Below are positions 10,736 to 39,422 of a stretch of 64,000 nucleotides of DNA, piece after piece. A program made the position numbers and the translations under genes. The notes under the pieces are model-generated. The model made no database searches. It saw only the letters and a list, made by a program, of their open reading frames with translations, and was not told the origin of the DNA. Position 1 is the stretch's first letter, and every line of letters begins with the position of its first letter. Source of the stretch: Halorubrum trapanicum (GTDB lineage: Archaea; Halobacteriota; Halobacteria; Halobacteriales; Haloferacaceae); NCBI RefSeq assembly GCF_002355655.1, contig NZ_AP017569.1:1426001-1490000 (forward strand). The letters run 5' to 3'.

Positions 10736-11179
10736 GTGAACACCGCAGATCAGTACCTCAAGACGATATACGTCGTACAGGACCAGGAGGACGGCCCCGC
10801 CTCGACGGGGTCGATAGCCGACTCGCTCGGCGTCAGCCCGGCCAGCGCCAACGAGATGATCGGCAAGCTCGAGGAGCGCGGGCTCGCCGAACACGAGAAG
10901 TACAAGGGCGTCCGGCTGACCGACGACGGCATCGTCCGCGCCAGAGACGCCCTCCAGACGTACTGTATCATCGAGCGGTTCCTCGCGAACGTCCTCGCGG
11001 TCGAGGACTTCCAGGCCGAGGCCCGCGAGCTGGAGGCCGTCATCGACGACACGGTCGCCGAGCGGCTCGACACGATCATCGACCGCCAGCCGGAGTGCCC
11101 GGACTGCTTCGACCCCGAGACGGACGCCTGCGCGTGTCTCGAAGTCGCGGCGGCCCCGGTCGAGCCGGAACAGCAGTAG
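10736..11179 (+). CDS. DtxR/SirR-family metal-dependent transcription regulator
   Basis: 147 residues. The N-terminal winged helix (about 1-65) has the DtxR pattern: QYLKTIYVVQDQEDG, then STGSIADSLGVSPASANEMIGKLEERGL and a wing. The dimerisation and metal domain follows (IIERFLANVLAVEDFQAEARELEAVI). Family members bind Fe(II) or Mn(II) and repress iron-uptake genes at palindromes such as TTAGG...CCTAA. The C-terminus adds CPDC...CACL cysteines in place of an SH3-like domain. GTG start at 10736 with GGAGGA five bases upstream. It follows the ferritin-like gene, so the pair looks iron-related. It is a candidate to read the five iron boxes at 29.7-39.4 kb; that link is inference. Confidence 0.85.
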   Translation: MNTADQYLKTIYVVQDQEDGPASTGSIADSLGVSPASANEMIGKLEERGLAEHEKYKGVRLTDDGIVRARDALQTYCIIERFLANVLAVEDFQAEARELEAVIDDTVAERLDTIIDRQPECPDCFDPETDACACLEVAAAPVEPEQQ

Positions 11180-15666: not shown

Positions 15667-16602
15667 TTACGAGACGATCTCGTCGATCAGTTCACGCGCG
15701 CTGCGCCGGACCGCCGCGTCGCTCTCGATCGACGGCTCCCACCCGAGGTCGGCCAGCTTCTCGATCGACAGGCGCATCTTCGGCACGTCACCGGTCCAGC
15801 CGCGGTCGCCGCCGGTGTAGCTGTACTCGGGGTCGACACCGAGTTCCTCGCTCACGATGTCGGCGATGTCGGTGACGGAGGTGGTCGTCCGCGTGCCGAG
15901 GTTGTACACGTTGTACGCGTCGTCCGCGCCCTCGACGACGTGCTGGATCGCGTCGACGCACTCGGTGACGTGCATGTACGACTTCTCCTGCCGGCCGTCG
16001 CCGAGGATCTCCAGCTCCGTCGGGTCCTCGTCCAGCTTCTCGATGAAGTCGGGGATCACGTTGCCGCGCTGGCGCGGGCCGACGATGTTCGCGAAGCGGA
16101 ACACCCACGACTGGATCCCGTACGAGTGGGCGTGCGTGGAGATGAGCCCCTCGTCGGCGAGCTTCGAGGAGCCGTAGATCGAGATGGGCTCCATCGGCGC
16201 GTAGTCCTCGGCCGTCGGGCGCGGCGCCTCGCCGTAGACGGTCGACGAGGAGGTGAACGCGAAGCGGTCGACGCCGACCTCGCGCATGCGATCTAAGACG
16301 TTGTACGTCATCGCGGTGTTCTCCTCGAAGAGGACGCGGTCGTCGTCGTAGTTCGTGTCCGTGTACGCCGCGAAGTGGAAGACGACGTCGAGGTCGCCGG
16401 TGACCGCGCGGGCGACGTCGTCGGGGTCGGTCACGTCGGCCGCGACGAACTCGGCGCCGGCGGGCACCCGGTCGCGGGTCCCCTTCGAGAGGTCGTCGGC
16501 GACGCGGACGGCCGCGCCGCGGTCGAGCAGGTCGGCCGCGAGGTGGCTCCCGACGAGGCCGGCGCCCCCGGTGACGAGGACGCGCGAATCGGCGAGGTTC
16601 AT
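15667..16602 (-). CDS. NAD-dependent sugar-nucleotide epimerase/dehydratase
   Basis: 311 residues, extended short-chain dehydrogenase family (UDP-glucose 4-epimerase-like). Rossmann motif GGAGLVGSHL is at about residues 11-20, the catalytic Ser/Thr region is TSSSTVYGEA, and YGSSKLADE carries the YxxxK pair. The C-terminal half has FRFANIVGPRQRGNVIPDFI and SYMHVTECVDAI, typical of archaeal epimerases supplying sugars for S-layer glycosylation. Start chosen at the ATG at 16600-16602, because the Rossmann strand begins there; longer frames run into Arg/Ser-rich upstream sequence. No sugar cluster is adjacent, so substrate is unknown. Confidence 0.9.
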   Translation of the reverse strand: MNLADSRVLVTGGAGLVGSHLAADLLDRGAAVRVADDLSKGTRDRVPAGAEFVAADVTDPDDVARAVTGDLDVVFHFAAYTDTNYDDDRVLFEENTAMTYNVLDRMREVGVDRFAFTSSSTVYGEAPRPTAEDYAPMEPISIYGSSKLADEGLISTHAHSYGIQSWVFRFANIVGPRQRGNVIPDFIEKLDEDPTELEILGDGRQEKSYMHVTECVDAIQHVVEGADDAYNVYNLGTRTTTSVTDIADIVSEELGVDPEYSYTGGDRGWTGDVPKMRLSIEKLADLGWEPSIESDAAVRRSARELIDEIVS

Positions 16603-16669
16603 ACCGGTCGGTCGGCGCTCGCGGATAAGTAGGTGTGGAATCGGGACGGGGTCGGCGGTCGAGGCGCCG

Positions 16670-17110
16670 CTATAAGTTCTCGAACGCCTCGTCGACGATT
16701 TCACCGGTGTCGGCGACGATATTCTCCATCTCGTCGTCGTCCGGCGCCATCCCGACGAGCCGGGCGATACGCATGATCGAGACGTGGTAGACGCGCTGGA
16801 CGCCGGGCTCCTCCTCCCAGATAACGACGTTACACGCCATCAGCGCGCCGAGCTTGTTGTCGGTCGCGTCGAGCGCTCGGTCGGCGACCTCGGGGTTACA
16901 CGCGCCCAAGACGTAGTAGGGGTCGCGGCCCGCGTCCACCTTCTCGTTGAGCATCTCCGACGGCGAGAACTCGACGGGGACGCCGAATCCGGCGTCGGTG
17001 AACACCTCGCGGACGTGTTCGATCGCCGCCTCGTGATCCATCTCGAGGGTGGCCTGCTGTTCGCCGATGTCGTCCGGGTCGATCTGCGTCGGGTCGATGG
17101 GAAGCGTCAT
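16670..17110 (-). CDS. DUF302-family protein
   Basis: 146 residues. DUF302 features: a DHEAAIEHVREVFTDAGFGVPVEF N-terminal half and KLGALMACNVVIWEE in the middle, with the YYVLGACNPEVADRAL segment typical of the family. The fold is a small alpha/beta domain; function is unknown, though DUF302 genes are often near sulfur and redox genes. It is divergent from the HTH regulator whose ATG lies 163 bp away, and shares the upstream region that holds operator S1. Confidence 0.85.
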   Translation of the reverse strand: MTLPIDPTQIDPDDIGEQQATLEMDHEAAIEHVREVFTDAGFGVPVEFSPSEMLNEKVDAGRDPYYVLGACNPEVADRALDATDNKLGALMACNVVIWEEEPGVQRVYHVSIMRIARLVGMAPDDDEMENIVADTGEIVDEAFENL

Positions 17111-26878: not shown

Positions 26879-27926
26879 CCTTCTCAGCGGGCCCGGCTTC
26901 CTGGGGACGAGCCCCGAGATGCTCGCCCTGTTCGTCGGATTCGGCCTCGTCGTCGGCGTCCTGTTCGGGTTCTTCGGCATGGGCGGGTCGTTCCTCGTCA
27001 CCCCCGCCCTGCTCATGCTAGACTACTCCGCCCCCGTCGCGGTCGGCAGCGGGATGGCGTTCGTCTTCGGGACGGCCGTGATCGCGACGCTGAAACACCA
27101 CGACCTCGGGCAGGTGGACTACAAGCTCGGCGCGATCATGATCACGGGGACGACGATCGGAATCGAGGCCGGGCGCGCCAGCGTCTACTACCTCGAATCG
27201 ATGGGGCTCGCCGGCGGCGTCATCAGCGTCGCCTACGTCGTCCTGCTCGGCGGCGTCGGGGCGATGGTCACCCGCGACGCCCTCAAGGGCGACGGCGGGG
27301 GCGGAATCGACCACGAGGCGACCGACAGGGACCTCGACGAGTACGAGATCCCCGAGATCGCCAAGAAAATCCAGCGGACCGTTCGCATTCCGCCGATGGT
27401 GACGCTCCGCGGCGACGTCCGCGTCTCCGCGTGGGTGATCACGGCCGTCGCCTTCGCGACCGGCGTCCTGTCCGGCTTCCTCGGCGTCGGCGGCGGCTTC
27501 ATCCGGATGCCAGCGATGATCTACGCGATCGGCGTCCCGGTGCCCGTCGCGGTCGGCACGGACCTCTTCGAGATCGTCTTCTCCGGCGGGCTCGGGAGCT
27601 ACCTCTACGGGCAGGGCGGCGGCGTGAACCTCGGTATCGTCGCCCCGCTGCTGTTCGGGAGCGCGCTGGGCGCGCGCATCGGCTCCGCCGCGACCGCGGT
27701 CGTCGATTCCGACGAGATCAAGGTGTACTTCGGCGGGATGCTGCTGGTCGGCTCCATCGCCGTGGGTATCGGCGAAATAGGGTCCTACCTCGGCAACTCG
27801 ACGCTTGAGCTGCTCGGACTGGTACTCGTCATCGGCGCGGCGGTCGTCGTCGCGGCCGCGGTCCTCTACACGACGGTCACTTCGCTCCGCGTGACGCGGC
27901 AACAGCAGACGTCGACCGCCGACTGA
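26868..27926 (+). CDS. TauE/SafE-family sulfite/organosulfonate exporter
   Basis: About 352 residues, eight or more membrane helices in two repeats: GFFGMGGSFLVTPALLMLDYSAPVAVGSGM in the first and GFLGVGGGFIRMPAMIYAIGVPVPVAVGTDL in the second, both diagnostic for TauE/SafE. A cytoplasmic loop of about 50 residues separates the halves. Start: GTG 26868 has GGAGGTGA six bases upstream, better than GTG 26859 which overlaps that site. It likely exports sulfite or a related anion produced by persulfide oxidation, matching the neighbouring dioxygenase-like gene. Confidence 0.88.
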   Translation: MLGSLLSGPGFLGTSPEMLALFVGFGLVVGVLFGFFGMGGSFLVTPALLMLDYSAPVAVGSGMAFVFGTAVIATLKHHDLGQVDYKLGAIMITGTTIGIEAGRASVYYLESMGLAGGVISVAYVVLLGGVGAMVTRDALKGDGGGGIDHEATDRDLDEYEIPEIAKKIQRTVRIPPMVTLRGDVRVSAWVITAVAFATGVLSGFLGVGGGFIRMPAMIYAIGVPVPVAVGTDLFEIVFSGGLGSYLYGQGGGVNLGIVAPLLFGSALGARIGSAATAVVDSDEIKVYFGGMLLVGSIAVGIGEIGSYLGNSTLELLGLVLVIGAAVVVAAAVLYTTVTSLRVTRQQQTSTAD

Positions 27927-28049
27927 TCCGCGTTTCGCCGTCGGATCCGCAGCTCCGATCTTGTACACTTGATTCAGAACAGCTGCCGAGCGGAAGCGAT
28001 CGGTCCGCCGTGCGCCGACGCGGTCGACGCGCCGAGCCGCTCTCGCCCC

Positions 28050-29660
28050 TCACAGTCCCTCTTCGCCGCCCTCCTGCGTGAGGAGGACGACCATCGAGAG
28101 CCCGGAGATGAGGAGCAGAATGAGCGTGGGGACGACCGCGTACTGGTAGAACGCGTTCTGCTGCGCGCGCCAGATCTGCGTGACGATCGTGTCGAACCCG
28201 GTCGGGCGGAGCACGAGCGTGACGGGCAGTTCCTTCATCGTCGTGAGGAACACGAGCGCGGCGCCGGCGACGATGCCGGAGCGCGTGAGCGGGAACGTGA
28301 CGCGCCTGAACGCGCCGGTCGACGACTCACCGAGGGTGCGCGCGGCCTCGACGAGCCGCCGGTCGATCTGGAGGATGGAGGTCCGCGTCGACCCGACCGC
28401 CTGGGGGAGGAAGCGGACGACGTACGCGAACACGAGGAGCGGGAGCGTCTGGTAGAGCCACGGCGCGTAGCCGGAGCCGAAGTACACCAACGCGAGCGCC
28501 AACACGATGCCGGGCACCGCGAAGCCGACGTACGTCGCCCGCTCGAAGATCACCGCGAACGGCGAGTCGTGGTTCGCGGCGAAGTACGCGACCGGGATCG
28601 CGGCGAGCGCGGCGGCGACGGCCGCCGCCGCGGAGACCGACACGGAGTTGAGCACCATGATCGGCTCGAACGCCAGCGAGGGGCGGCGCCCGGATTCGGC
28701 CCGGAGCAGCCACAGCCCGAGGATCCACAGGGGGACGAGCAGCGCGGTGCCGGACACCGCGGCCGGCAGCAGCGTCGCGGGCCAGCGCAGGCGGCCGAGC
28801 GACACCCGGTCGTCCGTCCGCCCCGCGTCGTCGCCGCTCGTGTTCCGGTCCGAGCGGACGGCCCACTCCAGGGCGAGCACGAGGATGACCACGACGAGCA
28901 GCTGGAGGGAAAGCAGCGCGGCGTAGTCGCTGCCGAAGGAGTTGTACTCCACGTAGATCTGTCGGGTGAACACCGGGAGCTGCATGATCGAGGGCGTCCC
29001 GAAGTCGGAGACGGCGTACAGCGCCGAGAGCAGCGCCCCGGCGGCGATCGCGGGCCGGATCGTCGGGAGCGTCACCCGGCGGAACGCCGCGAGCCGGCCG
29101 TGGTTGAGCGTCCGGGCGGCCTCCAGCATCGTCGTGTCGAACGACAGCAGCGCGGCCCGGGTGGTGAGGTAGACGTAGGGGTAGGTGTACAGCGTGATCA
29201 CGAAAATCGTTCCGGAGAGGCCGTAGATGTTGGGCACCCGCTCGACACCCAGCGGCGCGAGGACGTTGTGGAACGCCCCCTGCGGGCCGAACGCGGAGAC
29301 GAACGAGAAGGCGCCGACGTAGCTCGGCACGACGAGCGGGAGCGCGGCCGCGACGGACCAGAAGCGGGGGAACGGGAGGTCGGTCCGGGCGGTGAGGTAC
29401 GCGAGCGGCACGCCGATGAGGATCGAGGCGGCGGTGACGCCCGCCATCAGCACGAGGCTGTTGACGAGCACCTCGGCGGTGCCGGCGCTGAACACGAGGT
29501 CCATCGCCCGCTGCCGGTCGACGGCCGCCGCCCTGATCACGAGCCACGTCAGGGGGAACACGAGCGTGCCGGCGATCGCCGCGCACAGCAGCGTGAGCCC
29601 GATCGGGAGCTTGTCGTCGCCGTCGGTCAGCCGGTCGCGGATCCGGGTTCGCAGGGTCAT
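28050..29660 (-). CDS. Fe(III)-type ABC transporter permease
   Basis: 536 residues, two fused permease halves with about 12 membrane helices. Each half has an EAA-like loop: DTTMLEAARTLNHGRLAAFRRVTLPTIRPAI and DRRLVEAARTLGESSTGAFRRVTFPLTRSGI. This two-domain layout is typical of FbpB/ThiP-type transporters for ferric iron or thiamine. A matching iron-type binding protein is at 35863-37014; no ATPase gene is seen in the window. It is divergent from the oxidoreductase operon; iron box 1 lies 95 bp upstream and could serve both. Confidence 0.85.
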   Translation of the reverse strand: MTLRTRIRDRLTDGDDKLPIGLTLLCAAIAGTLVFPLTWLVIRAAAVDRQRAMDLVFSAGTAEVLVNSLVLMAGVTAASILIGVPLAYLTARTDLPFPRFWSVAAALPLVVPSYVGAFSFVSAFGPQGAFHNVLAPLGVERVPNIYGLSGTIFVITLYTYPYVYLTTRAALLSFDTTMLEAARTLNHGRLAAFRRVTLPTIRPAIAAGALLSALYAVSDFGTPSIMQLPVFTRQIYVEYNSFGSDYAALLSLQLLVVVILVLALEWAVRSDRNTSGDDAGRTDDRVSLGRLRWPATLLPAAVSGTALLVPLWILGLWLLRAESGRRPSLAFEPIMVLNSVSVSAAAAVAAALAAIPVAYFAANHDSPFAVIFERATYVGFAVPGIVLALALVYFGSGYAPWLYQTLPLLVFAYVVRFLPQAVGSTRTSILQIDRRLVEAARTLGESSTGAFRRVTFPLTRSGIVAGAALVFLTTMKELPVTLVLRPTGFDTIVTQIWRAQQNAFYQYAVVPTLILLLISGLSMVVLLTQEGGEEGL

Positions 29661-29754: not shown

Positions 29755-29770
29755 TTTAGGGCTGCCTAAA
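29755..29770. promoter_or_regulatory. Iron box 1
   Basis: Perfect palindrome TTTAGG-GCTG-CCTAAA between a GATATAT TATA box (about 29745) and the ATG at 29778. Matches the DtxR/IdeR-type operator shape TTAGG-N4-CCTAA known for archaeal and bacterial iron repressors. Placement would block transcription start. Confidence 0.8.
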
Positions 29771-29777
29771 AAGTTCC

Positions 29778-30344
29778 ATGGAACTGACGCGACGCGACGC
29801 GGCGGCCGCGCTGGCCGCGATCGGCGCGACCGGCGGGGTCGCGCTCGGCGTCCGTCGGGCGACCGACGATCGGGGCCGACCGGGAGACGGCGAGGCCGAC
29901 GCGGCGTGGGACGGCGAGGGCGCCCCGGACGACGAGGCGGTCCGTGAGGCGATGACCGCGGCCGCGCGGGTCCTCTACCCGGAGGAGGTCTCCGGGATCG
30001 ACGCGTTCGTCGACCGCTTCCTCGACGGGCGCCTCGACGGGTCGGCGCACGCCGAGGGCGTCCGCGCCGCCGTCGCCGAGGTCGAGTCGGCGGCCCGGTC
30101 GTGGTACGACGCGCCAGTCGCCGAACTCTCGGCGGCCGAGCGCGACGACCTGCTCCGCGAGCTCGGCGCGGACACGGCCGAGGAGGACCCCGGAGGGACG
30201 GCCGCGGAGCGCGTCCGCTTCTTCGTCGTCAACGAGCTGCTGCTCGCGCTGTACTCGTCGCCGACGGGCGGCGAGCTCGTCGGCATCGAGAACCCGCAGG
30301 GGTATGCCGGCGGCGCGGAGAGCTACCAGGAGGGGCCGCGATGA
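29778..30344 (+). CDS. Gluconate 2-dehydrogenase subunit 3-like protein
   Basis: 188 residues. The N-terminus, ELTRRDAAAALAAIGATGGVAL, looks like a twin-arginine signal (RR followed by a hydrophobic stretch). The rest matches the small subunit of membrane-bound sugar and gluconate dehydrogenases: AARVLYPEEVSGIDAFVDRFLDGRL, FFVVNELLLALYSSPTGGELVG, and an NPQGYAGGAESYQEGPR ending. The small subunit usually escorts the flavin subunit through the Tat system. It overlaps the GMC gene by 4 bp (ATGA). Iron box 1 is 7 bp before the ATG. Confidence 0.82.
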   Translation: MELTRRDAAAALAAIGATGGVALGVRRATDDRGRPGDGEADAAWDGEGAPDDEAVREAMTAAARVLYPEEVSGIDAFVDRFLDGRLDGSAHAEGVRAAVAEVESAARSWYDAPVAELSAAERDDLLRELGADTAEEDPGGTAAERVRFFVVNELLLALYSSPTGGELVGIENPQGYAGGAESYQEGPR

Positions 30345-31999
30345 GCGGCGCCGAGAGCGTCGGCGACGGGCGGTCGGGGGCTGAGGGAGGCGCCGGCGAG
30401 GAGGTCGACCGCACTCCGGTCCCCGACGCCGACGTCTGCGTTGTGGGCGCCGGTCCCGCGGGCGCGCTCGTCGCCGACCGGCTCGCGGGCGACCGCGACG
30501 TGGTGGTCCTCGACGCCGGGCCGCGGTTCGACCCCGCCGACCGCCTCGCCAGACAGGAGCGGGCGATTCGGCCGTTCTACGGCCGGCCGGACGTGTGGGG
30601 CGTCGGCGGCGCGCGCGACGCCCACGAGAACGCCGGCGACTGGTTCTACCCGCTCAACCACGCCCGCGTGAAGGGGGTCGGCGGGTCGACGCTCCACTGG
30701 CAGGGGATGGTGATGCGGCTCCACGAGGACGACTTCAACTCCGGCACGGAGCGCGGCGTCGGCCCGGACTGGCCCATCGACTACGCCGACCTCCGGCCGT
30801 ACTACGCCGAGGCGGAGAAGGAGCTGGGCGTCGCGGGCGCCTCCGACAACCCCTACGCGCCGCCGCGCGAGGAGCCGCACCCGATGCCGGCGTTCGAGCC
30901 CTCCTACAGCGACTCGCTGTTCGCCGAGGCCTGCGAGGAGCTGGGGATCGACATGCACTCGGTGCCGAACGCGCGCAACTCCGAGCCGTACGACGACCGG
31001 TCGCCCTGCGTCGGCTACGGCACCTGCCAGCCGGTCTGCCCGAGCGGCGCGAAGTACGACGCGACGGTCCACGTCGAGCGCGCGGAGGAGAAGGGCGCGA
31101 CCGTGGTCGACCGCGCGCCGGTCGAGCGGCTGGAACACGACGGCGACGACCGGGTGACGGCCGCCGTCTACGCGACGCCGGACGGGGAGCGCCACCGACA
31201 GGAGGCGGACGCGTTCGTCGTCGCCGCCGGGGGCGTGGAGACGCCGCGGCTCCTCCTTTTGTCCGCCTCCGACCGCTACCCCGACGGGCTCGCGAACGGG
31301 AGCGGCCACGTCGGCGAGTTCTTCATGGACCACCTGTTCGCGGGCGCGGGCGGCACGCTCGACGAGGAGACGAGACAGAACCACGTCGGCTTCTACACCA
31401 GCGCCTGCGACCAGTTCTACGACGAGGCCGACGCCGAGCAGGCGCCGTTCAAGCTGGAGTTCTTCAACTACGCCGGCCCCTCGCCGGTGGAGATGGCGCT
31501 CACGGGCGACGACTGGGGCGACCCGCTCCTAGAGCGGCTCCGCGACGGGTACGGGAACCACATTGCGATGGGCGGGCTCGTCGAGCAGGCGCCGCGGGCC
31601 GACAGCCGGATCACCCTCGCCGACGACCGCACCGACGACCGCGGCAACCCCGTGCCGCAGATGGAGTGGACCGTCGGCGACCGCGCACTCGACACGATCG
31701 AGCGGGCGAACGAGATCCAGGTCGAGATCTTAGAGGAGCTCGGCGCCGACGTCGAGTGGGTCGCCGGCCCGGACGCGACGGGGCCCGCCTACCACCATAT
31801 GGGGACGACGCGCATGAGCGACGACCCCGATTCGGGCGTCGTCGACGCCGACTGTCGGACCCACGACCTCGACAACTGCTGGATCGCCTCCAGCTCCGTC
31901 TTCCCCACGAGCGGCGCGATGAACCCGACGCTCACCATCGCCGCGCTCGCGCTCCGCGTCGCCGACGACGTGGACGCCCGCCTCTCGGAGGGGACCTGA
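30341..31999 (+). CDS. GMC-family FAD oxidoreductase with Fe-S-type cysteine motif
   Basis: 552 residues. FAD site DVCVVGAGPAGALVADRL is at about 31-48, and GGSTLHWQGMVMRL is the GMC signature region. The C-terminal half has YHHMGTTRMSDDP and NPTLTIAALALRVAD with the catalytic His/Asn area. The segment CVGYGTCQPVCPSGAKYDA gives a C-x5-C-x3-C pattern like the [3Fe-4S] hinge of bacterial glucose/fructose dehydrogenases. It probably oxidises a sugar or alcohol outside the cytoplasmic membrane, carried by the Tat-signalled small subunit. Substrate unknown; control by an iron box suggests a role in iron supply or an iron-saving switch (inference). Confidence 0.85.
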   Translation: MSGAESVGDGRSGAEGGAGEEVDRTPVPDADVCVVGAGPAGALVADRLAGDRDVVVLDAGPRFDPADRLARQERAIRPFYGRPDVWGVGGARDAHENAGDWFYPLNHARVKGVGGSTLHWQGMVMRLHEDDFNSGTERGVGPDWPIDYADLRPYYAEAEKELGVAGASDNPYAPPREEPHPMPAFEPSYSDSLFAEACEELGIDMHSVPNARNSEPYDDRSPCVGYGTCQPVCPSGAKYDATVHVERAEEKGATVVDRAPVERLEHDGDDRVTAAVYATPDGERHRQEADAFVVAAGGVETPRLLLLSASDRYPDGLANGSGHVGEFFMDHLFAGAGGTLDEETRQNHVGFYTSACDQFYDEADAEQAPFKLEFFNYAGPSPVEMALTGDDWGDPLLERLRDGYGNHIAMGGLVEQAPRADSRITLADDRTDDRGNPVPQMEWTVGDRALDTIERANEIQVEILEELGADVEWVAGPDATGPAYHHMGTTRMSDDPDSGVVDADCRTHDLDNCWIASSSVFPTSGAMNPTLTIAALALRVADDVDARLSEGT

Positions 32000-32016
32000 C
32001 GGCGGCCTTTCACTAT

Positions 32017-32032
32017 TTTAGGCAAACCTAAA
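32017..32032. promoter_or_regulatory. Iron box 2
   Basis: TTTAGG-CAAA-CCTAAA, arms perfect, 18 bp after the oxidoreductase stop and 23 bp before the GT2 ATG at 32056. Confidence 0.8.
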
Positions 32033-32055
32033 AATTCAAGTGGGTACGGGCAGAG

Positions 32056-32925
32056 ATGCGGGTAATGAGCGACTCAGCGCACGCGACGAACGGGTCCGCG
32101 GCCGCGGTCGGGAACGGCAGCGAGGCGGCCGCAACGGACGATACCGACGCGACGAACGAGGCGGACTCCTTGGACGATACCGACGCGACGAACGAGGCGG
32201 ACTCCTCGGACGACACGGACGCGACCGCCGACGGCGGAGAGGCGTACACCTTCGACGACCTCAGCGTCGTGATGGGGACGTACAACGAGGAGGAGGCCAT
32301 CGCGACGGTGCTGGAGGACATCGAAGAGGTCACGAACGGGAAGGCGGAGGTCGTCTGCGTCGACGGCTCCTCCGACCGAACGCCGGAGATCGCCCGCGAG
32401 CACGGTGCGACCGTCGTCGAGCAGGAGCCGCAGGGGTACGGCGTCGCCGTGCGCGAGGCGATCTTGACGCCCGACCGCCCGGTGGTCGTCACGACCGACT
32501 GCGACGACACCTACCCGATGGAGGCGCTGCCGGAGTTCCTCGCGGAGATCAACGACGGCGCCGACGTGGTGAGCGGCGACCGGCTCTACCACGGCGCGGA
32601 TGCGATGCCGGCGTTCAACCGCTTCGGCAACCACGCGTTCGCGGCGCTCGCGAGCCTGCTGATGGGCGAGCGCGTCCACGACACCACCACGGGGATGCGC
32701 GCGTACCGCCGCGACGTGGTCGAGGAGATCGGCTGGACGGAGAACACCGGCCTCTCCGCCGAACTGCTCATCCGCCCGCTGATGCGGGGCTACGACGTGC
32801 GCGAGCGGCCGATCCGCTACGCCGAGCGCCTCGGCGAGACGAAGCTCGACCCGATCGGCGGCGGCGCGGCCATCGCGAAGTCGATCGTCACCGTCTGTCT
32901 CGAAGAGCAGCTCCGACGGTTCTGA
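32056..32925 (+). CDS. GT2 polyprenyl-phosphate glycosyltransferase (DPM1/DPG-like)
   Basis: 289 residues. After an acidic, Thr-rich N-terminal tail (about 70 residues) the GT-A fold starts at DLSVVMGTYNEEEAIATVLEDI. VVCVDGSSDRTPEIAREHGA and TTDCDDTYPMEALPEFL carry the DxD-type metal site, and HDTTTGMRAYRRDV matches dolichyl-phosphate mannose/glucose synthases. The C-terminus is hydrophilic, without membrane helices. It should load a sugar onto a polyprenyl phosphate on the cytoplasmic face. The tail contains two exact-length 36-bp repeats (32137-32172, 32173-32208) plus a partial third. ATG 32056 or Met4 at 32065 are both possible. Confidence 0.88.
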   Translation: MRVMSDSAHATNGSAAAVGNGSEAAATDDTDATNEADSLDDTDATNEADSSDDTDATADGGEAYTFDDLSVVMGTYNEEEAIATVLEDIEEVTNGKAEVVCVDGSSDRTPEIAREHGATVVEQEPQGYGVAVREAILTPDRPVVVTTDCDDTYPMEALPEFLAEINDGADVVSGDRLYHGADAMPAFNRFGNHAFAALASLLMGERVHDTTTGMRAYRRDVVEEIGWTENTGLSAELLIRPLMRGYDVRERPIRYAERLGETKLDPIGGGAAIAKSIVTVCLEEQLRRF

Positions 32926-33035
32926 GGGCACCTCGTCCCTCGACGCCGTCGTCGGACGGCGGTCCGGAGGTACACTGTGGGCACAGTGGACCGCCGCCGG
33001 CGACGTTTCTACACTCGTGAGCGGCGGCGCCGACT

Positions 33036-33418
33036 ACTTATAAATGAACGCGCGGATGCGGTCGGCGCGCGCCTGCGAGCGGCCGCCCTCGGCGGCCGCG
33101 AGCCAGCACGCGCGAGGGACGCGGTGAGTGAGGGGCGACCGGAGGGAGCCCGAGCGAATCGCGAGGCTGAGGAGGCGTGAGGTGCCGTGCGGGGCTGTGC
33201 GGGGTGGGACTCAAAGGGGCAGTCGCGAGGCCGCAGTAGGCGATGTAAGCACCGCAGGGAGCAGCGCGACCGAGGAGCGCAGCGAGCGTACTGCGGCCTC
33301 GCGGCTGGGGCTTTGGAGGTGGCCGCCGCCGATCTGCTGACAACTATTTATAAGCGAGCGGCTGGGGCTTTGGAGGTGTTCGCCGCCGATCTGCTGACAA
33401 CTATTTATAAGAAATCGA
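33036..33418 (+). repeat. Element D: structured intergenic repeat with 57-bp tail units
   Basis: Occupies the gene-free stretch before the ArnT-like gene. Order: ACTTATAAAT (33036-33045), a hairpin GCGGCCGCC-CTC-GGCGGCCGC (33079-33099), CGCGAGGGA, GACCGGAGGGAGC, GAGGAGGCGTGAGG-type block, GGGACTCAAAGGGGCAG, stem b CGCGAGGCCGCAGTA / TACTGCGGCCTCGCG (15 bp; 33224-33238 with 33289-33303), a loop with AAGCACCGCAGGGAGC, then two 57-bp tail units (33301-33357, 33358-33414), each GCGGCTGGGGCTTTGGAGGTG...TTTATAAG. Stem a is degenerate. It ends four bases before the ArnT-like stop codon. Confidence 0.75.
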
Positions 33419-33422
33419 TGTA

Positions 33423-35816
33423 TTAGTCGCTCGCTTCGGCGTCCGTCTCGAAGACGACCCACTCGGGGTGGGTCTGGGGCTCGTCGGGGAGGTACGTCCC
33501 CTCGTTGCCGCACTCCGTCACGAGCCGACAGGTCGAGCGCTCGGGCGGCCAGACGACTTCGACGCGCTCGCCGTCGGCTCCCGCCTCGTCACCCTCCGTC
33601 ACCCGCACCGTGACCTCCTGCCGGTAGGTGTACGTCGCGCCCGCGGGGTCGACGAGCGTCACGGTCACGGCGATCACGTCGCCGTCGGGGTCGAACGGGA
33701 CCGGCTCGGTCGCGTTTCCGGCAGCGCCGTCGCCCGCGGCCGCCGCGCCCGCGCCCGACAGCCGGGCGCCCTCGGGCGTCAGCGCCCAGTCGACCGCGAG
33801 CGACTCGCCGAGGTCGCTCACGGTGTAGGAGACGTGGTCCGGGCCGCCCGGGGCGCCCCGACGCGGGTCGACGCGGACCTGCGCGCGGGCGACGCGGTCG
33901 GGGACGCCGACGGTCGTCTCCGCGTCGATGCGGGCCCCCGACCGCCGGTCCAGCGCCTCAAGCTTGGGAACGACGCGCGCGTCCGGGCTCACGCCCCAGA
34001 CGCCGTGGTAGCCGTAGCGGTACAGCGTGCGGTCGGGGTAGGCGTCCAACACGGCGAAGTTCTCCACCGGGTCGCGTTCGAGCGCGTACACGACGTCGCC
34101 GTCGAGCCCCGGCCCGTTCCGGAGGTACTGGAACGGGTGGTTCTGCCACTCGCCGTACGGCGTGGGGAGGAACACGAGCCCGTCCTCGAACGTCGTCTCG
34201 TCGATCGGCGCGTACGCGGCCTCGAGCTTCTCGCCGACCGCGGCGTTCCGGTCGATCGGCTCGGAGGCGGCGTCGACGGCCGCGACGCCCGCCACGGCGA
34301 CCGCGCTGGCGACGACGACGGCGAGCGCGACGCGGGTGACCGCGGGCGAGACGCCCCGGGCCGCGAGCCGCTCGCGGGCCGCGACGAGCCCCCGCCACCC
34401 GACGGCGACGCCGAGTCCACCGAACACCGCCAGCGGGACGAGCAGGTCGAAGTGGTAGAACGGGCCGAACAGCGACGCGAGCCCGTCGGTCGGGTCCGAG
34501 AGGTCCGCGAGCGCGTTGTGGGTCCCCCAGAAGTACAGGTTCCCGACGACGACGGAGCCCGCGACGCCGGCGAGCAGCGCGGCCGCGGTCCGGCGGAACG
34601 CGGGGGAGTCGGACGGGGCGGGCGCTCCCGGCGAGTCATCGACGTCGCCGCCGTCGGCGACCCGCGCGGCGCCGGCGGACGCTCCGCCGAGGAGGCCGCG
34701 GGGGTCGCCGCCCGCGAGCCACCCCCAGAGCGCGGCCGCGACGCCCCCGACCGCCAGCGCGGTGCCGAGCGGGCCGGCGACGAACCACCGGGTCGCGATC
34801 TCGGCGAGCGCGTACCCGTTCGACTCAAGCGCCAGTTCGAGCGTGTAGTCGACCGAGTGGCCGAGGATGCGCCGCTCGCCGAAGCCCGGGCCGTCCATCG
34901 GCGCGAACTCCTGGTACGGGAACACGAGCGGCGACCCCGTCATCCGGGCGTTGTACGCGAACGTGACGCCGACGAACAGGACGCCGAACAGCGCCGTCAA
35001 CCCCTGGCGACGGATCGGGCCGGGGAGCTCGCCGGACCGACCGACCGCGACCGCGCGGCGGCCGAGGGCCGCGAACGCGCGCGGCGTCGACCGCCCCGTC
35101 TCGGCGCCAAAGCGGCGGACCGCCGCCCCCACCCGCCACAGCGCGTGGGCGATGAACGGCGCGGCGAACAGCACCGCGGTGTACGGCCGCGAGAAGAACG
35201 CGATCCCGATCGCGACGCCCGCGACGCCGGCGGCCGCGAGCGACCGGTCGCGGACCCCGCGGAGGTACGCGACCGCGAAGACCAGGTTGAAGAACGTCGT
35301 GGGCGCGTACGGGAGGAACGCCGACGACGTCGCGATCGCCATCGGCGACGCCGCGAACAGGAGGCTCGCGGCGAGCCCCGCCCGCCGGCCGAACGTCTGC
35401 GAGCCGAGCAGGTACACCAGGGCGGCGTTGCCCGCGGCGATCGCCGCGAGCGTGACGCGCGGCTCGTCGAACAGCCACATCGAGACCGCGAACGTCGCCG
35501 CGGGAACGGGGTTGTACTTCGGGTAGAGCCGGCCGTCGTCCTCGATGAAGAACCACGGGTGGACGGCGTCGGCGAGCGGGCCGGCGTGGAACTCCAACTG
35601 GCCGCCTAAGAGGAGCGCGGCCTGCGTGAGGTAGACGCCCTCGTCGTGGTTCGCGGAGTGGTGCGAGAAGACGGTGGCGGCGATCGCGAACGTCAGGGCG
35701 CCGGCCGCGACGGCGACCAGCGCGGCCGCGAGCGTCACGCGGTCGGCGCGGGCGAGCCGCTGGCGGAGTCGGACGGCGAGTCGGTGGGGCCGCACGGACG
35801 GTGGAAGGAGTGACAC
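33423..35816 (-). CDS. ArnT/GT39-like membrane glycosyltransferase
   Basis: 797 residues. About 10-12 membrane helices in the N-terminal two thirds. The first outside loop has NHDEGVYLTQAALLL, the acidic DE motif of GT-C transferases that use a polyprenyl-phosphate sugar. A Gly/Ala-rich helix set and a soluble C-terminal domain of about 250 residues follow. It is predicted to transfer a lipid-carried sugar to a protein or lipid on the outer face. It starts 46 bp after the binding-protein gene and has no box of its own, so it should be read from iron box 3. Confidence 0.82.
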   Translation of the reverse strand: MSLLPPSVRPHRLAVRLRQRLARADRVTLAAALVAVAAGALTFAIAATVFSHHSANHDEGVYLTQAALLLGGQLEFHAGPLADAVHPWFFIEDDGRLYPKYNPVPAATFAVSMWLFDEPRVTLAAIAAGNAALVYLLGSQTFGRRAGLAASLLFAASPMAIATSSAFLPYAPTTFFNLVFAVAYLRGVRDRSLAAAGVAGVAIGIAFFSRPYTAVLFAAPFIAHALWRVGAAVRRFGAETGRSTPRAFAALGRRAVAVGRSGELPGPIRRQGLTALFGVLFVGVTFAYNARMTGSPLVFPYQEFAPMDGPGFGERRILGHSVDYTLELALESNGYALAEIATRWFVAGPLGTALAVGGVAAALWGWLAGGDPRGLLGGASAGAARVADGGDVDDSPGAPAPSDSPAFRRTAAALLAGVAGSVVVGNLYFWGTHNALADLSDPTDGLASLFGPFYHFDLLVPLAVFGGLGVAVGWRGLVAARERLAARGVSPAVTRVALAVVVASAVAVAGVAAVDAASEPIDRNAAVGEKLEAAYAPIDETTFEDGLVFLPTPYGEWQNHPFQYLRNGPGLDGDVVYALERDPVENFAVLDAYPDRTLYRYGYHGVWGVSPDARVVPKLEALDRRSGARIDAETTVGVPDRVARAQVRVDPRRGAPGGPDHVSYTVSDLGESLAVDWALTPEGARLSGAGAAAAGDGAAGNATEPVPFDPDGDVIAVTVTLVDPAGATYTYRQEVTVRVTEGDEAGADGERVEVVWPPERSTCRLVTECGNEGTYLPDEPQTHPEWVVFETDAEASD

Positions 35817-35862
35817 GAACGGTGAGCGGGGGTGATATGGGCGTGGTGTGGGTGAGGCGACC

Positions 35863-37014
35863 TCAGATCTGGACGCCGGCGTCGCGCATGAGGTCGATCG
35901 TCGGTTCGAGGTTCGACAGCTGCGTCAGGTCGAGGTCCGGGACGTCGAGCTCGTCGATCGGCGGGAGGTTGCCGATCGGCTCGACCTCCGGGATCAGCGG
36001 GTACTCGAAGGTGGAGCGCGCGAAGTAGTCCTGCGCCTCGGCCGACAGCAGGTGCCGGACGAAGTTGGCCGCGAGGTCGTCGTCGTCGGCGGTGTCGACG
36101 ACCGCGGCGCCGGCGACGTTGAACACCGCGCCCGCGTCGCCCTCGGTGAACGAGGTGGCGATCGGCGCCTCCGGGTTCCCGTCGATCACGCGCTGGATGT
36201 AGTAGTGGTTCGTGAACGCGGCGTCGATCTCGCCGTCGGCGATCGCCTGACAGGTGACGAACTCGTCGGGGTACGTCGAGGCGCCGCGCTCGACCATCGC
36301 CTCGAGCCAGTCGCGGGTGGCCTCCTCGCCCTCGAGGATGCGCATCGCGGTGATGAACGCCTGCGCGGAGCCGTACGACGGCGCCCAGCCCAGGTCGCCC
36401 TCGAACTCCTCGGGGTACGCCATGATGTCGTCGAGCATCTCGCTTTCCGAGTACTCGTCGGTGTTGTACGGGACCGTCCGGGCGCGCCCGGAGGTGCCGA
36501 TCCACTGCTCGGTCCGGAACTCCTCGCGCACCTTGTCGGTCACCTCGGACGGGAGCTCCTGCGTGCGCCCCTGGTCCGCGAGCGCGCCGAGCGCGCCGGA
36601 GTTGACAGAGTAGAACACGTCCGCGGGCGACCCCTCGCCCTCGTTGATGATCTGGTTCACGAGGTCGGTCGAGCCGCCGTACCGGACGGTGAGGTCGAGG
36701 TCGTCGTACAGGTCGTCGATGTAGCCGACGAGCTCGCCGACGAGGAACTCGCCGCGGCCGGAGTAGACGGTGAGCTCGCCCTCCAGCGCCGGCATCTCGG
36801 CCATCGGCGTGCCGCCCGGGAGCCCGCGGCCCGCGCGGCCGGACCCGATCTGGCCGACCGCGGACCCGCCGTCGCTCCCGTCGCCGCCGTCGCCCTCGTC
36901 GCCGGTCCCGTTACAGCCGGCGATCCCCGCCACGCCGACCGCGCCGGCGGCCGCGATGAACTTTCGTCGTCGAACGTCGCGTCCGTCGTGTCCGTCGGAT
37001 TCGTGGTTCGTCAT
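35863..37014 (-). CDS. Iron(III) ABC transporter substrate-binding lipoprotein
   Basis: 383 residues. The signal RRRKFIAAAGAVGVAGIAGCNG has twin arginines and a lipobox Cys, as usual for haloarchaeal Tat lipoproteins. The mature part is FbpA-like: LTVYSGRGEFLVGELVGYID, TVRYGGSTDLVNQI, SVNSGALGALADQGR, VPYNTDEY and TNHYYIQRV. Tyrosines in NHYYIQ are the usual Fe(III) ligands. It should work with the permease at 28050-29660. Iron box 3 is four bases before the ATG. Confidence 0.92.
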   Translation of the reverse strand: MTNHESDGHDGRDVRRRKFIAAAGAVGVAGIAGCNGTGDEGDGGDGSDGGSAVGQIGSGRAGRGLPGGTPMAEMPALEGELTVYSGRGEFLVGELVGYIDDLYDDLDLTVRYGGSTDLVNQIINEGEGSPADVFYSVNSGALGALADQGRTQELPSEVTDKVREEFRTEQWIGTSGRARTVPYNTDEYSESEMLDDIMAYPEEFEGDLGWAPSYGSAQAFITAMRILEGEEATRDWLEAMVERGASTYPDEFVTCQAIADGEIDAAFTNHYYIQRVIDGNPEAPIATSFTEGDAGAVFNVAGAAVVDTADDDDLAANFVRHLLSAEAQDYFARSTFEYPLIPEVEPIGNLPPIDELDVPDLDLTQLSNLEPTIDLMRDAGVQI

Positions 37015-37018
37015 GTGT

Positions 37019-37034
37019 TTTAGGCTTACCTAAA
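37019..37034. promoter_or_regulatory. Iron box 3
   Basis: TTTAGG-CTTA-CCTAAA, arms perfect, 4 bp before the binding-protein start (37014) and next to an AGTATTTA TATA-like stretch on the minus strand. Confidence 0.82.
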
Positions 37035-37053
37035 TACTTTTAGTCGTGTCGAT

Positions 37054-38235
37054 TCAGTCGTCCGCGGGCGCCGGCGTCCGCCGGATCCCGTCGAGGCAGT
37101 CGAGCCAGTCGCGCATGTACTCGCCGCAGTGGTTGAGGAACGCGCCGTTGTTCCACTCGGAGAAGTCGCCCTCCGCGAGCGCGTCGGCCATCTCGTCGAA
37201 GACCGCCTCGTACGAGTCGGCGTCCGCGCCCGCGCCGTCGATGACCTCCCAGACGTGCTCGTTCAGCTCCAGCCCGGCGACCTCGTTCGCGAGGTCGTCG
37301 AACGTCGACCGCGGGGCCTTGTTGTGTTCGCACAGCGGGTCGCCGTTGTAGATCCGCTTGCCGAGCACGTCGCAGGCGCGTTTTAAGAAGAGGCCCGACC
37401 AGATGTCGTCGAACCGGCCCACGTCCCACTCGTTGTCGTCCATCGGGAGCTGGTAGAACGCCGGGATCACCTCGCGGCGGAACGCGAGGTTCATCGAGCA
37501 GACGGTGAGGTAGTTGCCGCGCGCGGCGACGAAGTCCTCGCCGAAGTCGTCGGCGGTCGTGCGGGTCTGCGCCTGCCCCTCCAGGTCACCGTCCATCAGG
37601 ATCCGCACCGCGTCGAGGTCGGGGACGTTCGTCCACAGCCCCTGCGAGGCGACGACCTCGCCGCCCTCGACGTCGACCGCGTCCGTCTCGACCGTCTCGT
37701 CCATCGCCGAGTACGGGTAGCCGCGGGGGTAGAGCCCGTGCTCGTCGGCGTCGTCGTAGAGGACGTTCACCCAGTCCTCGTCGGAGCGCACGCGCTCGAT
37801 CTCGCCGTCGAACGCGAGGTTCTCCATGTGGCGCCCGAAGTAGTCGACGTCGTCGTGCGGGAGCGTGTCGTCGTCGATGAACACGCCGTACTCGAAGGAG
37901 TCGTCGGCCCACATGTACAGCAGGCCGAAGCTCGTCTCGGCGTGGCTCGCGGCCGGGACGACGTGGTCGTACTCCGCGACGCCGTTGGCCTCGTACCACT
38001 CCTCGCGGCGGGTGCCGTCGAACACCTCGCCGGAGACGTCGAGGTCGTCGAGCATGGCGCGCATCTCGTCGGTCTCGCAGAAGTCCTCGGTGACTAAGAG
38101 GAAGTGGAGCCGCGAGACGTCGAACCCGTGTTCGCGGGCGTTCGCGACGTACACGCGGAGACACTCGTACTCCCGTATCGTCGGGACGATCACGCAGATG
38201 TCCGAGTCGTCGGGACGCTGGGCGGTGGTCGGCAT
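37054..38235 (-). CDS. RGP/UDP-arabinopyranose mutase-like protein (GT75 family)
   Basis: 393 residues. It matches the plant reversibly glycosylated polypeptide family in order: CVIVPTIREYECLRVYV at the start, VFIDDDTLPHDDVDYF with the DDD motif, RGYPYSAMDE, ASQGLWTNVPDLDAVRIL, CSMNLAFRREVIPAFYQL, GRFDDIWSGLFLKRACD and a HNKAPRSTFDDLANEV segment. Plant members interconvert UDP-arabinopyranose and UDP-arabinofuranose; archaeal members are little studied. No membrane helix. It is followed by the binding-protein gene 39 bp on, but each has its own iron box. Likely role: supplying a furanose-type nucleotide sugar or priming a glycan (inference). Confidence 0.85.
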   Translation of the reverse strand: MPTTAQRPDDSDICVIVPTIREYECLRVYVANAREHGFDVSRLHFLLVTEDFCETDEMRAMLDDLDVSGEVFDGTRREEWYEANGVAEYDHVVPAASHAETSFGLLYMWADDSFEYGVFIDDDTLPHDDVDYFGRHMENLAFDGEIERVRSDEDWVNVLYDDADEHGLYPRGYPYSAMDETVETDAVDVEGGEVVASQGLWTNVPDLDAVRILMDGDLEGQAQTRTTADDFGEDFVAARGNYLTVCSMNLAFRREVIPAFYQLPMDDNEWDVGRFDDIWSGLFLKRACDVLGKRIYNGDPLCEHNKAPRSTFDDLANEVAGLELNEHVWEVIDGAGADADSYEAVFDEMADALAEGDFSEWNNGAFLNHCGEYMRDWLDCLDGIRRTPAPADD

Positions 38236-38246
38236 GTGCGATAGTT

Positions 38247-38262
38247 TTTAGGCCGACCTAAA
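38247..38262. promoter_or_regulatory. Iron box 4
   Basis: TTTAGG-CCGA-CCTAAA, arms perfect, 11 bp before the RGP-like start (38235), squeezed between this gene and the stop of the flippase-like gene at 38266. Confidence 0.82.
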
Positions 38263-38265
38263 AAT

Positions 38266-39399
38266 CTAGCGGTCCGTCGCCGTCGGCGCCGCGGTCGATT
38301 CCGTCTCCGGCGCGGACTCGTCCGGACGGCCCGTCAGCGAGAGGTCGAACGCGGCCGCCGCGACCGCGCCGCCGACGAGGGTGACGCCGTTCTTCAGCGC
38401 GTGGTCGAGCACCGCCGCGGCGAGCGCGACCTCGGGAGCGATCGGCGTCGTGGCGACGACGATCCCGGTGAAGGCGGCCTCGTACAGCCCGATCCCGCCC
38501 TGCGAGAGCGGCAGTACCTTCGCGAGGTTCCCGGCCGAGACCGCGAGGGTACCGACGACGAGCAGCGTGACGGGGGCGGCGCCGCCGCCGAAGCCGCCGA
38601 CGAGCGCCGCGAGCACGAGGACCGCGGTGGCCACGTCCAGTCCCCAGACGACGGCGCTGGCGAGGAACACCCGGACCAGCGCGGCCCCGTCCGCCGCCAC
38701 GACGCGCACGGCGGCGCCGAACCGGACCGCGGCGTCGGCGACCGAAGCGAGCCGGGAGCCGTCGGCGCGCTCGCGGAGCGTCGGACCGAACCGGCGGTCG
38801 CTCCGGGCGACCGCGACGGTGACCGCCGAGCCGAGCGCGGCCGCGACCGCGATCCCCCCGGCGGCCGCGACCGCTCGCCCCGACCCGTCCGGCGCCGCGG
38901 CCCGCCCGTCGACGAGCAGGACCGCGAGCGCGGCGCCGCCGAGGACGCCGAGCGCGACCAGGTCGAAGGCGCGCTCGACCGCCAGCGACGCGACGCCGGT
39001 CGGGTACGACACCTCGCGCCGGTCGTTCAGCAGGTACGCGCGCACGCCGTCGCCGGCCCGGGCGGGGACGATCAGATTCGCGGTCTGGCTCGCGAACACC
39101 GCCGCCGTGAGGAACGCGGTTCGGCAGCGGCGGCCCATCGGGGCGAGGACATCTCCGTACCGCCGGCCGCGGACGGGCCACGACAGCAGGTACGCGCCGA
39201 GCGCCGCGGCGAGCAGCGCCGGGTCCGCGGTCGCGGCCGCGTCGACGACCGTCCCGACGTCGAGGGTCCGCGCCAACACCGCGCCGCCGACCGCGAGGAC
39301 GAGGAGCGTGCCCGCGACCGCGAGCGAGCCCCGGGGCAGACGCTCCCAAAGTCGAACGAGGCGCTCGCGGAGCCGAGCGGCGGCGACGCGCGGGTTCAT
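38266..39399 (-). CDS. Flippase-like membrane protein (LPG synthase TM/AglD-type)
   Basis: 377 residues with about eight membrane helices. ANLIVPARAGDGVRAYLLN and VERAFDLVALGVLGG match the UPF0104/lysylphosphatidylglycerol-synthase transmembrane family, and QGGIGLYEAAFTGIVVAT is the second conserved segment. Related domains form the membrane half of haloarchaeal AglD, a dolichol-phosphate glycosyltransferase, and are discussed as flippases. Next to a GT2 and an ArnT-like enzyme it is a good candidate to move the lipid-linked sugar. Iron box 5 lies 7 bp before the ATG. Confidence 0.82.
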   Translation of the reverse strand: MNPRVAAARLRERLVRLWERLPRGSLAVAGTLLVLAVGGAVLARTLDVGTVVDAAATADPALLAAALGAYLLSWPVRGRRYGDVLAPMGRRCRTAFLTAAVFASQTANLIVPARAGDGVRAYLLNDRREVSYPTGVASLAVERAFDLVALGVLGGAALAVLLVDGRAAAPDGSGRAVAAAGGIAVAAALGSAVTVAVARSDRRFGPTLRERADGSRLASVADAAVRFGAAVRVVAADGAALVRVFLASAVVWGLDVATAVLVLAALVGGFGGGAAPVTLLVVGTLAVSAGNLAKVLPLSQGGIGLYEAAFTGIVVATTPIAPEVALAAAVLDHALKNGVTLVGGAVAAAAFDLSLTGRPDESAPETESTAAPTATDR

Positions 39400-39406
39400 C
39401 CATTCG

Positions 39407-39422
39407 TTTAGGTCGCCCTAAA
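39407..39422. promoter_or_regulatory. Iron box 5
   Basis: TTTAGG-TCGC-CCTAAA, arms perfect, 7 bp before the flippase-like start (39399) with an A/T-rich AAGAATAAAA beside it. Confidence 0.82.

Follow-up and report, generated by a model that had tools for sequence, protein, structure and literature searches.

A putative iron-repressed regulon joining ferric-iron import to a dolichyl-phosphate sugar pathway in Halobacteria

Introduction

Why should an operator of the iron-regulatory type stand in front of genes for sugar transfer as well as genes for iron import? The question is raised by a gene cluster of Halorubrum trapanicum (assembly GCF_002355655.1) located in a stretch of 64,000 nucleotides, NZ_AP017569.1:1,426,001-1,490,000 of the forward strand, which is referred to as the window and on which all positions are based unless labelled otherwise. 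A sequence-only reading of this window had described five perfect palindromes close to start codons and had proposed that iron starvation switches on a complete lipid-carried glycan modification together with iron uptake. The analysis presented here favors, with a probability of roughly 0.62, a related interpretation, in which Fe(III) import (FbpA, FbpB, and a distantly encoded FbpC) and a cell-surface dolichyl-phosphate (Dol-P) sugar pathway are joined in one iron-repressed regulon.

Iron boxes in the cluster, the genome, and related loci

The cluster contains five exact TTTAGG-N4-CCTAAA palindromes, at 29755, 32017, 37019, 38247, and 39407, each 4–23 bp from a start codon, precisely as had been claimed; none is expected by chance (0 in 100 shuffles of the sequence). 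The first (TTTAGGGCTGCCTAAA, 29755–29770) directly follows a TATA-like element (GATATATGA) and lies 7 bp before the start, at 29778, of a gene for a sugar dehydrogenase gamma subunit (GDH3). The second (TTTAGGCAAACCTAAA, 32017–32032) is upstream of a TATA-like element, 23 bp before a GT2 glycosyltransferase gene (start at 32056). The third (TTTAGGCTTACCTAAA, 37019–37034) is 4 bp before the gene for an FbpA-class substrate-binding protein (SBP; start at 37014) and is also ahead of the co-directional gene for an ArnT/PMT-like transferase (PMT). The fourth (TTTAGGCCGACCTAAA, 38247–38262) and the fifth (TTTAGGTCGCCCTAAA, 39407–39422) precede an RGP-like gene (start at 38235) by 11 bp and a UPF0104 gene (start at 39399) by 7 bp, respectively. 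These gene identities agree with the ones first assigned, including the GMC flavoprotein paired with GDH3.

Nine perfect boxes occur in the whole 3.08-Mb genome, each ahead of a start codon, and the reversed control pattern has no occurrence in the same 3.08 Mb. Two of the four boxes outside the window are located 4 and 40 bp before a gene for a Peripla_BP_2 siderophore-binding protein, which is followed by ATPase and FecCD permease genes; another is 5 bp before a gene for a twin-arginine translocation (Tat) lipoprotein that weakly resembles a periplasmic binding protein, and the last is 3 bp before a gene for a TOBE-domain ATPase of the FbpC-like type, which would supply the component absent from the local importer. 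This list of targets indicates that the box regulon consists of Fe(III)/siderophore transport genes and the genes of this cluster. It also makes a regulator that responds to manganese or another metal instead of iron very unlikely: the DtxR-family protein encoded at 10736 has its best match among MntR models, though far below their cut-offs, whereas the boxed genes genome-wide are those of Fe(III)/siderophore transport.

Conservation was examined in 96 loci, comprising 80 named haloarchaeal loci from a search with the RGP-like protein and 16 regions from other genera, and a box was scored when it was at most 80 bp from the start codon with at most one mismatch. Such a box precedes the orthologs of RGP (95/96), SBP (84/96), GT2 (65/72), GDH3 (46/65), and UPF0104 (37/46). 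Occurrence before orthologs in related genomes had been set beforehand as a test of the proposal, and the counts for RGP, SBP, and GT2 bear it out. The PMT gene never has its own box (0/93) and sits inside the gene run. In 1.56 Mb of related loci, TTAGG-N4-CCTAA is found 295 times and the reversed pattern 0 times. Gene order and boxes recur together among relatives: the Halorubrum layout is that of the window, and in Natrinema, Haloarcula, and others one box is followed by a single run of SBP, permease, (ATPase), and PMT genes. The GT2 gene keeps its box even when far from the cluster; it is tens of kb or more away in six of the eight genomes examined for it, two of which eight have a perfect box and the rest a TTTTGG-N4-CCTAAA-type site in the same place.

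A co-inherited three-gene core

The five-gene, five-box layout that the sequence-only reading had treated as the unit gives way to a core of three genes, encoding the GT2, PMT, and RGP-like enzymes, beside which UPF0104 and GDH3/GMC vary by lineage. The first core gene (32056–32925, + strand) encodes a dolichyl-phosphate hexose transferase (NCBIfam NF041391, 407 bits against a cut-off of 375), whose solved relatives are Dol-P-mannose synthase and ArnC. The second (33423–35816, − strand) encodes a GT-C transferase of the ArnT/PMT type (Pfam PMT_2) with a C-terminal beta-rich DUF7846 domain (E = 2e-43). Comparison of its profile with solved structures by sequence gave nothing significant; a fold search succeeded, in which the AlphaFold model (predicted local distance difference test score, pLDDT, 87) matched AglB, ArnT, and AftA in Foldseek, with EmbB also among the fold matches. 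The modeled protein appears to be a genuine GT-C fold member, with an invariant acidic first-loop motif (D58/E59) and two invariant cysteines. The cluster contains no STT3/AglB oligosaccharyltransferase, the GT-C protein being PMT_2/DUF7846 by Pfam. The roles originally proposed for the GT2 enzyme and the ArnT-like transferase are thus the ones that their families and folds suggest.

The third core gene (37054–38235, − strand; Pfam PF03214) encodes the RGP-like protein, an assignment that can be refined to a GT75 enzyme of the nucleoside diphosphate (NDP)-pyranose mutase or autoglycosylating type. Among proteins of solved structure, the GT75 mutase MtdL is nearest to it (7yua, E = 4e-23), and Foldseek likewise matches its AlphaFold model (pLDDT 82) to MtdL (TM score 0.75–0.77, E = 1e-20). 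The D121-D123 metal motif and R171 are invariant in 37 sequences and correspond to D109-D111 and the autoglycosylated R159 of MtdL; D206, S247, R274, and D277, which are aligned with catalytic MtdL residues, are invariant in the same 37.

The RGP-like gene is present in 234 of the 294 Halobacteria sampled (about 80%). PMT, and likewise GT2 above the NF041391 cut-off, was found in 20/20 genomes with RGP and in 0/20 without it, so that presence and absence of the three agree in 40/40 genomes; similarly, DUF7846 and RGP agree in 53/53 Halobacteria, although shared ancestry means that such counts are not independent. DUF7846 is absent from the other phylum members sampled, and among 14 control genomes the RGP and DUF7846 families occur in Haloferax volcanii only, for which the identification is drawn from locus numbers. 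Genomes without the unit are spread over several families and GT2 is sometimes unlinked; therefore, block deletion alone does not explain the agreement. RGP, GT2, and GT-C/DUF7846 are a strict co-inherited unit. Two RGP-like copies are present in five genomes (G208, G219, G021, G221, and G266), and one further genome (G012) has a TAA within the RGP match, though PMT and GT2 are present.

The importer and the acceptor of the sugar

The iron side of the cluster comprises a ferric-iron-binding Tat lipoprotein of the FbpA class (35863–37014, − strand; phmmer 7w3w, E = 6e-59), whose TNHYY iron-ligand region aligns with that of the Thermus protein 4elo and places it in the adjacent-tyrosine class, and an ATP-binding cassette (ABC) permease (28050–29660, − strand) with two BPD_transp_1 halves (Pfam E = 7e-28), the FbpB-like partner of such a binding protein. 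The permease gene, which the sequence-only reading had omitted, is divergent from the first box; in many relatives it directly follows the SBP gene. A 316-aa open reading frame (27018–27968) was ruled out as the importer ATPase because it has no domain and lies on the strand opposite to a TauE gene, and because the FbpC-like ATPase elsewhere has a box of its own. A different importer layout is seen in three loci without the glycan unit (L113, L114, and L119), where FbpA and ATPase genes are divergent and two boxes occupy their common intergenic region.

The proximity of importer and transferase raises the possibility of dedicated lipoprotein glycosylation, in which the GT-C enzyme modifies FbpA or other iron-uptake lipoproteins in an N-terminal linker that is flexible; PMT enzymes act in this manner in some bacteria. 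The SBP gene is next to the PMT gene and reads in the same direction, in many cases within a single run of SBP, permease, ATPase, and PMT, and the linkers of module-containing genomes are richer in Ser/Thr (6.9 versus 2.9) and have a conserved GSG...GGTS/TP segment. However, this comparison mixes SBP subfamilies and includes few module-lacking sequences, and the GSG segment tracks the subfamily, being kept in module-lacking L111 and appearing as GDG in module-lacking L108; the linker was rejected as proof of an FbpA target since the differences follow SBP subfamily. In addition, GT75 and GT2 enzymes would be a large outlay for a single acceptor. A dedicated lipoprotein target is therefore a tentative alternative to the broader regulon favored here.

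Operator type and candidate regulator

As a conserved palindrome at the promoters of iron-uptake genes, the operator has the character of a DtxR/IdeR-type regulon. The classical DtxR/IdeR operator is a 19-bp two-dimer site, TTAGG-N9-CCTAA; the box described here has the same half-site with N4 spacing and agrees with the first 14 bp only. The initial identification as the DtxR/IdeR operator consequently holds for the type of regulon and not for the classical site. The window encodes a DtxR-family repressor with Fe_dep_repress N and C domains (10736–11179, + strand), a candidate regulator, and a second clear member is encoded at G000:C1:2193069; no box is found near either of these two genes. 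Low iron would be expected to induce the boxed genes, and either of the two proteins may be the regulator.

The promoters of SBP, GDH3, and UPF0104 have an A+T-rich TATA-like element directly before the box and a start codon within about 10 bp, an arrangement in which occupancy of the box would block transcription. At RGP, the distance from box to start is mostly 10–20 bp. The order is reversed at GT2, where the box comes first and the TATA-like element after it, and either repression or activation is possible.

Pairs of boxes 36 bp apart are found ahead of siderophore-uptake genes (L006:6187-6238 and L006:10710-10761), and in relatives boxes are also paired ahead of SBP and RGP genes, which may hint at cooperative binding. 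A Tat lipoprotein (L006:9449-10705, − strand) is encoded behind one perfect and one one-mismatch box; it has no Pfam or NCBIfam match and only weak similarity in the PDB, to a periplasmic binding protein, and is possibly a divergent siderophore-binding protein.

Lineage-variable genes

The UPF0104/LPG_synthase_TM membrane protein (38266–39399, − strand; Pfam PF03706, E = 6.5e-37; TIGR00374 above cut-off) is a flippase candidate, a role that has been predicted for the family (PMC5898192). According to the main text of PMC11349517, the UPF0104 protein HVO_1859 of H. volcanii rises 11.6-fold in iron-starved cells. This was rejected as direct evidence: the best match of the window protein in other genera is an AglD-like protein of two-domain size, HVO_1859 is mentioned simply as typical of stand-alone members of the family (PMC5898192), and nothing places it at this locus.

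The GDH3 gene (29778–30344, + strand; Gluconate_2-dh3, Pfam E = 3.5e-10) encodes the gamma subunit of a flavin adenine dinucleotide (FAD) sugar dehydrogenase with a Tat signal (TRRDAAAALAAIG); an RR pair lies within the first 45 residues in 65/65 orthologs. The start of the GMC gene (30341–31999, + strand) overlaps its stop, and the product is a flavoprotein of the FAD-glucose/fructose-dehydrogenase type (phmmer 6a2u, E = 4e-86) with a C-x5-C-x3-C Fe-S motif in 31/31 orthologs. An Fe-S flavoprotein with a Tat-bearing gamma subunit is the composition of an FAD sugar dehydrogenase, and the enzyme is probably exported via the Tat signal of its small subunit. It seems paradoxical that iron-starved cells would be expected to make an Fe-S flavoenzyme.

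These genes suggest a chelator route, in which the exported GMC/GDH3 enzyme oxidizes a sugar, either displayed or free, and the resulting acid captures Fe(III) for delivery to FbpA. Both subunits are under the same box; no cytochrome c subunit was found in a search confined to the annotated cluster genes, and use of halocyanin, a copper protein that is a one-electron carrier in haloarchaea (PMC8305020), would spare iron. On the contrary, GDH3/GMC is absent beside the module in many lineages and the Fe-S motif itself costs iron, and such a route is unlikely.

A GalE-like nucleotide-sugar epimerase is encoded elsewhere in the window (15667–16704, − strand). Its relatives adjoin UPF0104-RGP in Natrinema and related genera, and hence it may provide the sugar nucleotide. 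HVO_0655, likened to it by family as a GalE-family protein, is 12.7-fold up in iron-starved H. volcanii.

Proposed mechanism

The favored model of the regulon is as follows. In iron-replete cells, a DtxR-family repressor would occupy TTTAGG-N4-CCTAAA between the TATA box and the start codon, or upstream of the TATA box at GT2, and block transcription until starvation frees the sites. The GT75 enzyme would then make an NDP-furanose or hold the sugar on its arginine, the GT2 enzyme would transfer the sugar to dolichyl phosphate, and the lipid-sugar would be flipped, by UPF0104 where present. The DUF7846 GT-C enzyme would pass the sugar on outside the cell, the acceptor most likely being a protein or lipid of the surface with a part in iron uptake, and in some lineages the exported FAD sugar dehydrogenase may oxidize a sugar outside. 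Box conservation, gene linkage, three-gene co-inheritance, and enzyme families are direct readings of the sequences; the direction of regulation, sugar, acceptor, flipping, chemistry, and benefit are what they suggest. Of the original proposal, the link between Fe(III) uptake and lipid-carried sugar genes is retained, and "complete" is too strong a word for a pathway whose sugar, acceptor, and flippase are only predicted.

Several observations weigh against this model. Two MtdL sugar-pocket residues differ in the RGP-like protein (D87 to H98 and Q229 to M248), a difference that points to another sugar. Neither UPF0104 nor GDH3/GMC is universal, each being present in some lineages and absent from others. 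The main text of PMC11349517 gives the H. volcanii proteins that shift 10-fold or more in iron-starved cells, and no cluster gene is recognizable among them. Furthermore, an FbpA-class protein is present in 17/20 genomes without the glycan unit, so that iron import as such is independent of the glycan, and a box is close to the FbpA start in 8 of the 12 module-lacking genomes examined. This persistence of FbpA would also fit envelope remodeling without any uptake role, in which a general surface or exopolysaccharide sugar is switched on by starvation and its genes lie near the transporter through shared regulation. Dol-P transferases outside N-glycosylation have a precedent in H. volcanii HVO_1613, cited as AepG-like and not used for N-glycosylation, and in AepG, which serves exopolysaccharide (PMC9943897). 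However, the module is tightly linked to FbpABC in all families sampled, which leaves remodeling alone a possible but less favored explanation than a regulon joining import to the sugar pathway. Within that regulon, it is tempting to speculate that starved haloarchaea coat their surface or the ferric-binding lipoprotein with a furanose-type glycan, a sugar acid in some lineages, that gathers Fe(III) for FbpABC as a wall-bound substitute for siderophores, a doubtful though attractive idea.

Comparison with known systems

Iron starvation in archaea has so far been discussed in terms of siderophores, importers, and regulators. In about 80% of the sampled Halobacteria, including H. volcanii, an Fe(III) importer is accompanied by a Dol-P glycosylation route, and the two are tied together by their operator, their position, and co-inheritance. 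Probable roles can thereby be assigned to the unannotated domain DUF7846, archaeal RGP-like proteins, and the Dol-P transferase HVO_1613, and because H. volcanii is genetically tractable, it becomes testable whether iron hunger alters the surface glycan and aids iron capture.

The nearest relative in regulation is the haloarchaeal FerR (DtxR-family) iron regulon, of which Leyn and Rodionov 2015, cited by PMC11349517, is reportedly the founding paper. The two share a DtxR-type signal before iron-transport genes, whereas in the present system the glycan genes carry the most conserved boxes. The importer resembles the FbpABC system in its SBP, double permease, and TOBE ATPase, and differs in being tied to a glycan module. 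The iron half of the novelty first claimed was already known, since work on the DtxR regulon has already predicted HVO_1705 of H. volcanii to be an Fe(III)-binding protein (PMC10869688, PMC8155600), and it is the glycan link that was not found described. The literature search, outside which lay the FerR regulon tables and the iron-starvation proteome supplements, gave no description of any of these genes as part of an iron-linked glycan system; an earlier listing of some of them in those tables and supplements is possible.

In bacterial ArnC-ArnEF-ArnT, a GT2 enzyme loads polyprenyl phosphate, a flippase turns the sugar, and a GT-C enzyme transfers it outside. The order of steps is the same as that proposed here, and the PDB matches of GT2 and PMT include ArnC and ArnT; by contrast, the haloarchaeal system has a GT75 mutase-like enzyme and a DUF7846 domain. 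Moreover, bacterial arn genes answer high Fe(III) via PmrAB, whereas induction at low iron would be expected here. The mycobacterial decaprenyl-phosphoryl-arabinose/AftA-Emb system similarly uses a lipid-phosphate-furanose donor for outside GT-C enzymes, and AftA and EmbB are among the PMT fold matches; its furanose comes from other enzymes, and to our knowledge its arabinosyl transfer is not under iron control. The GT75 mutases MtdL and plant UAM/RGP (PMC9937993) share the fold and most catalytic residues with the RGP-like protein, which differs in two sugar-pocket residues and in its Dol-P chemistry context. Taken singly, box, importer, and enzyme families are all of known kinds, and what probably sets this system apart from those described is the predicted coupling of iron starvation to the cell surface through a lipid-carried sugar pathway.

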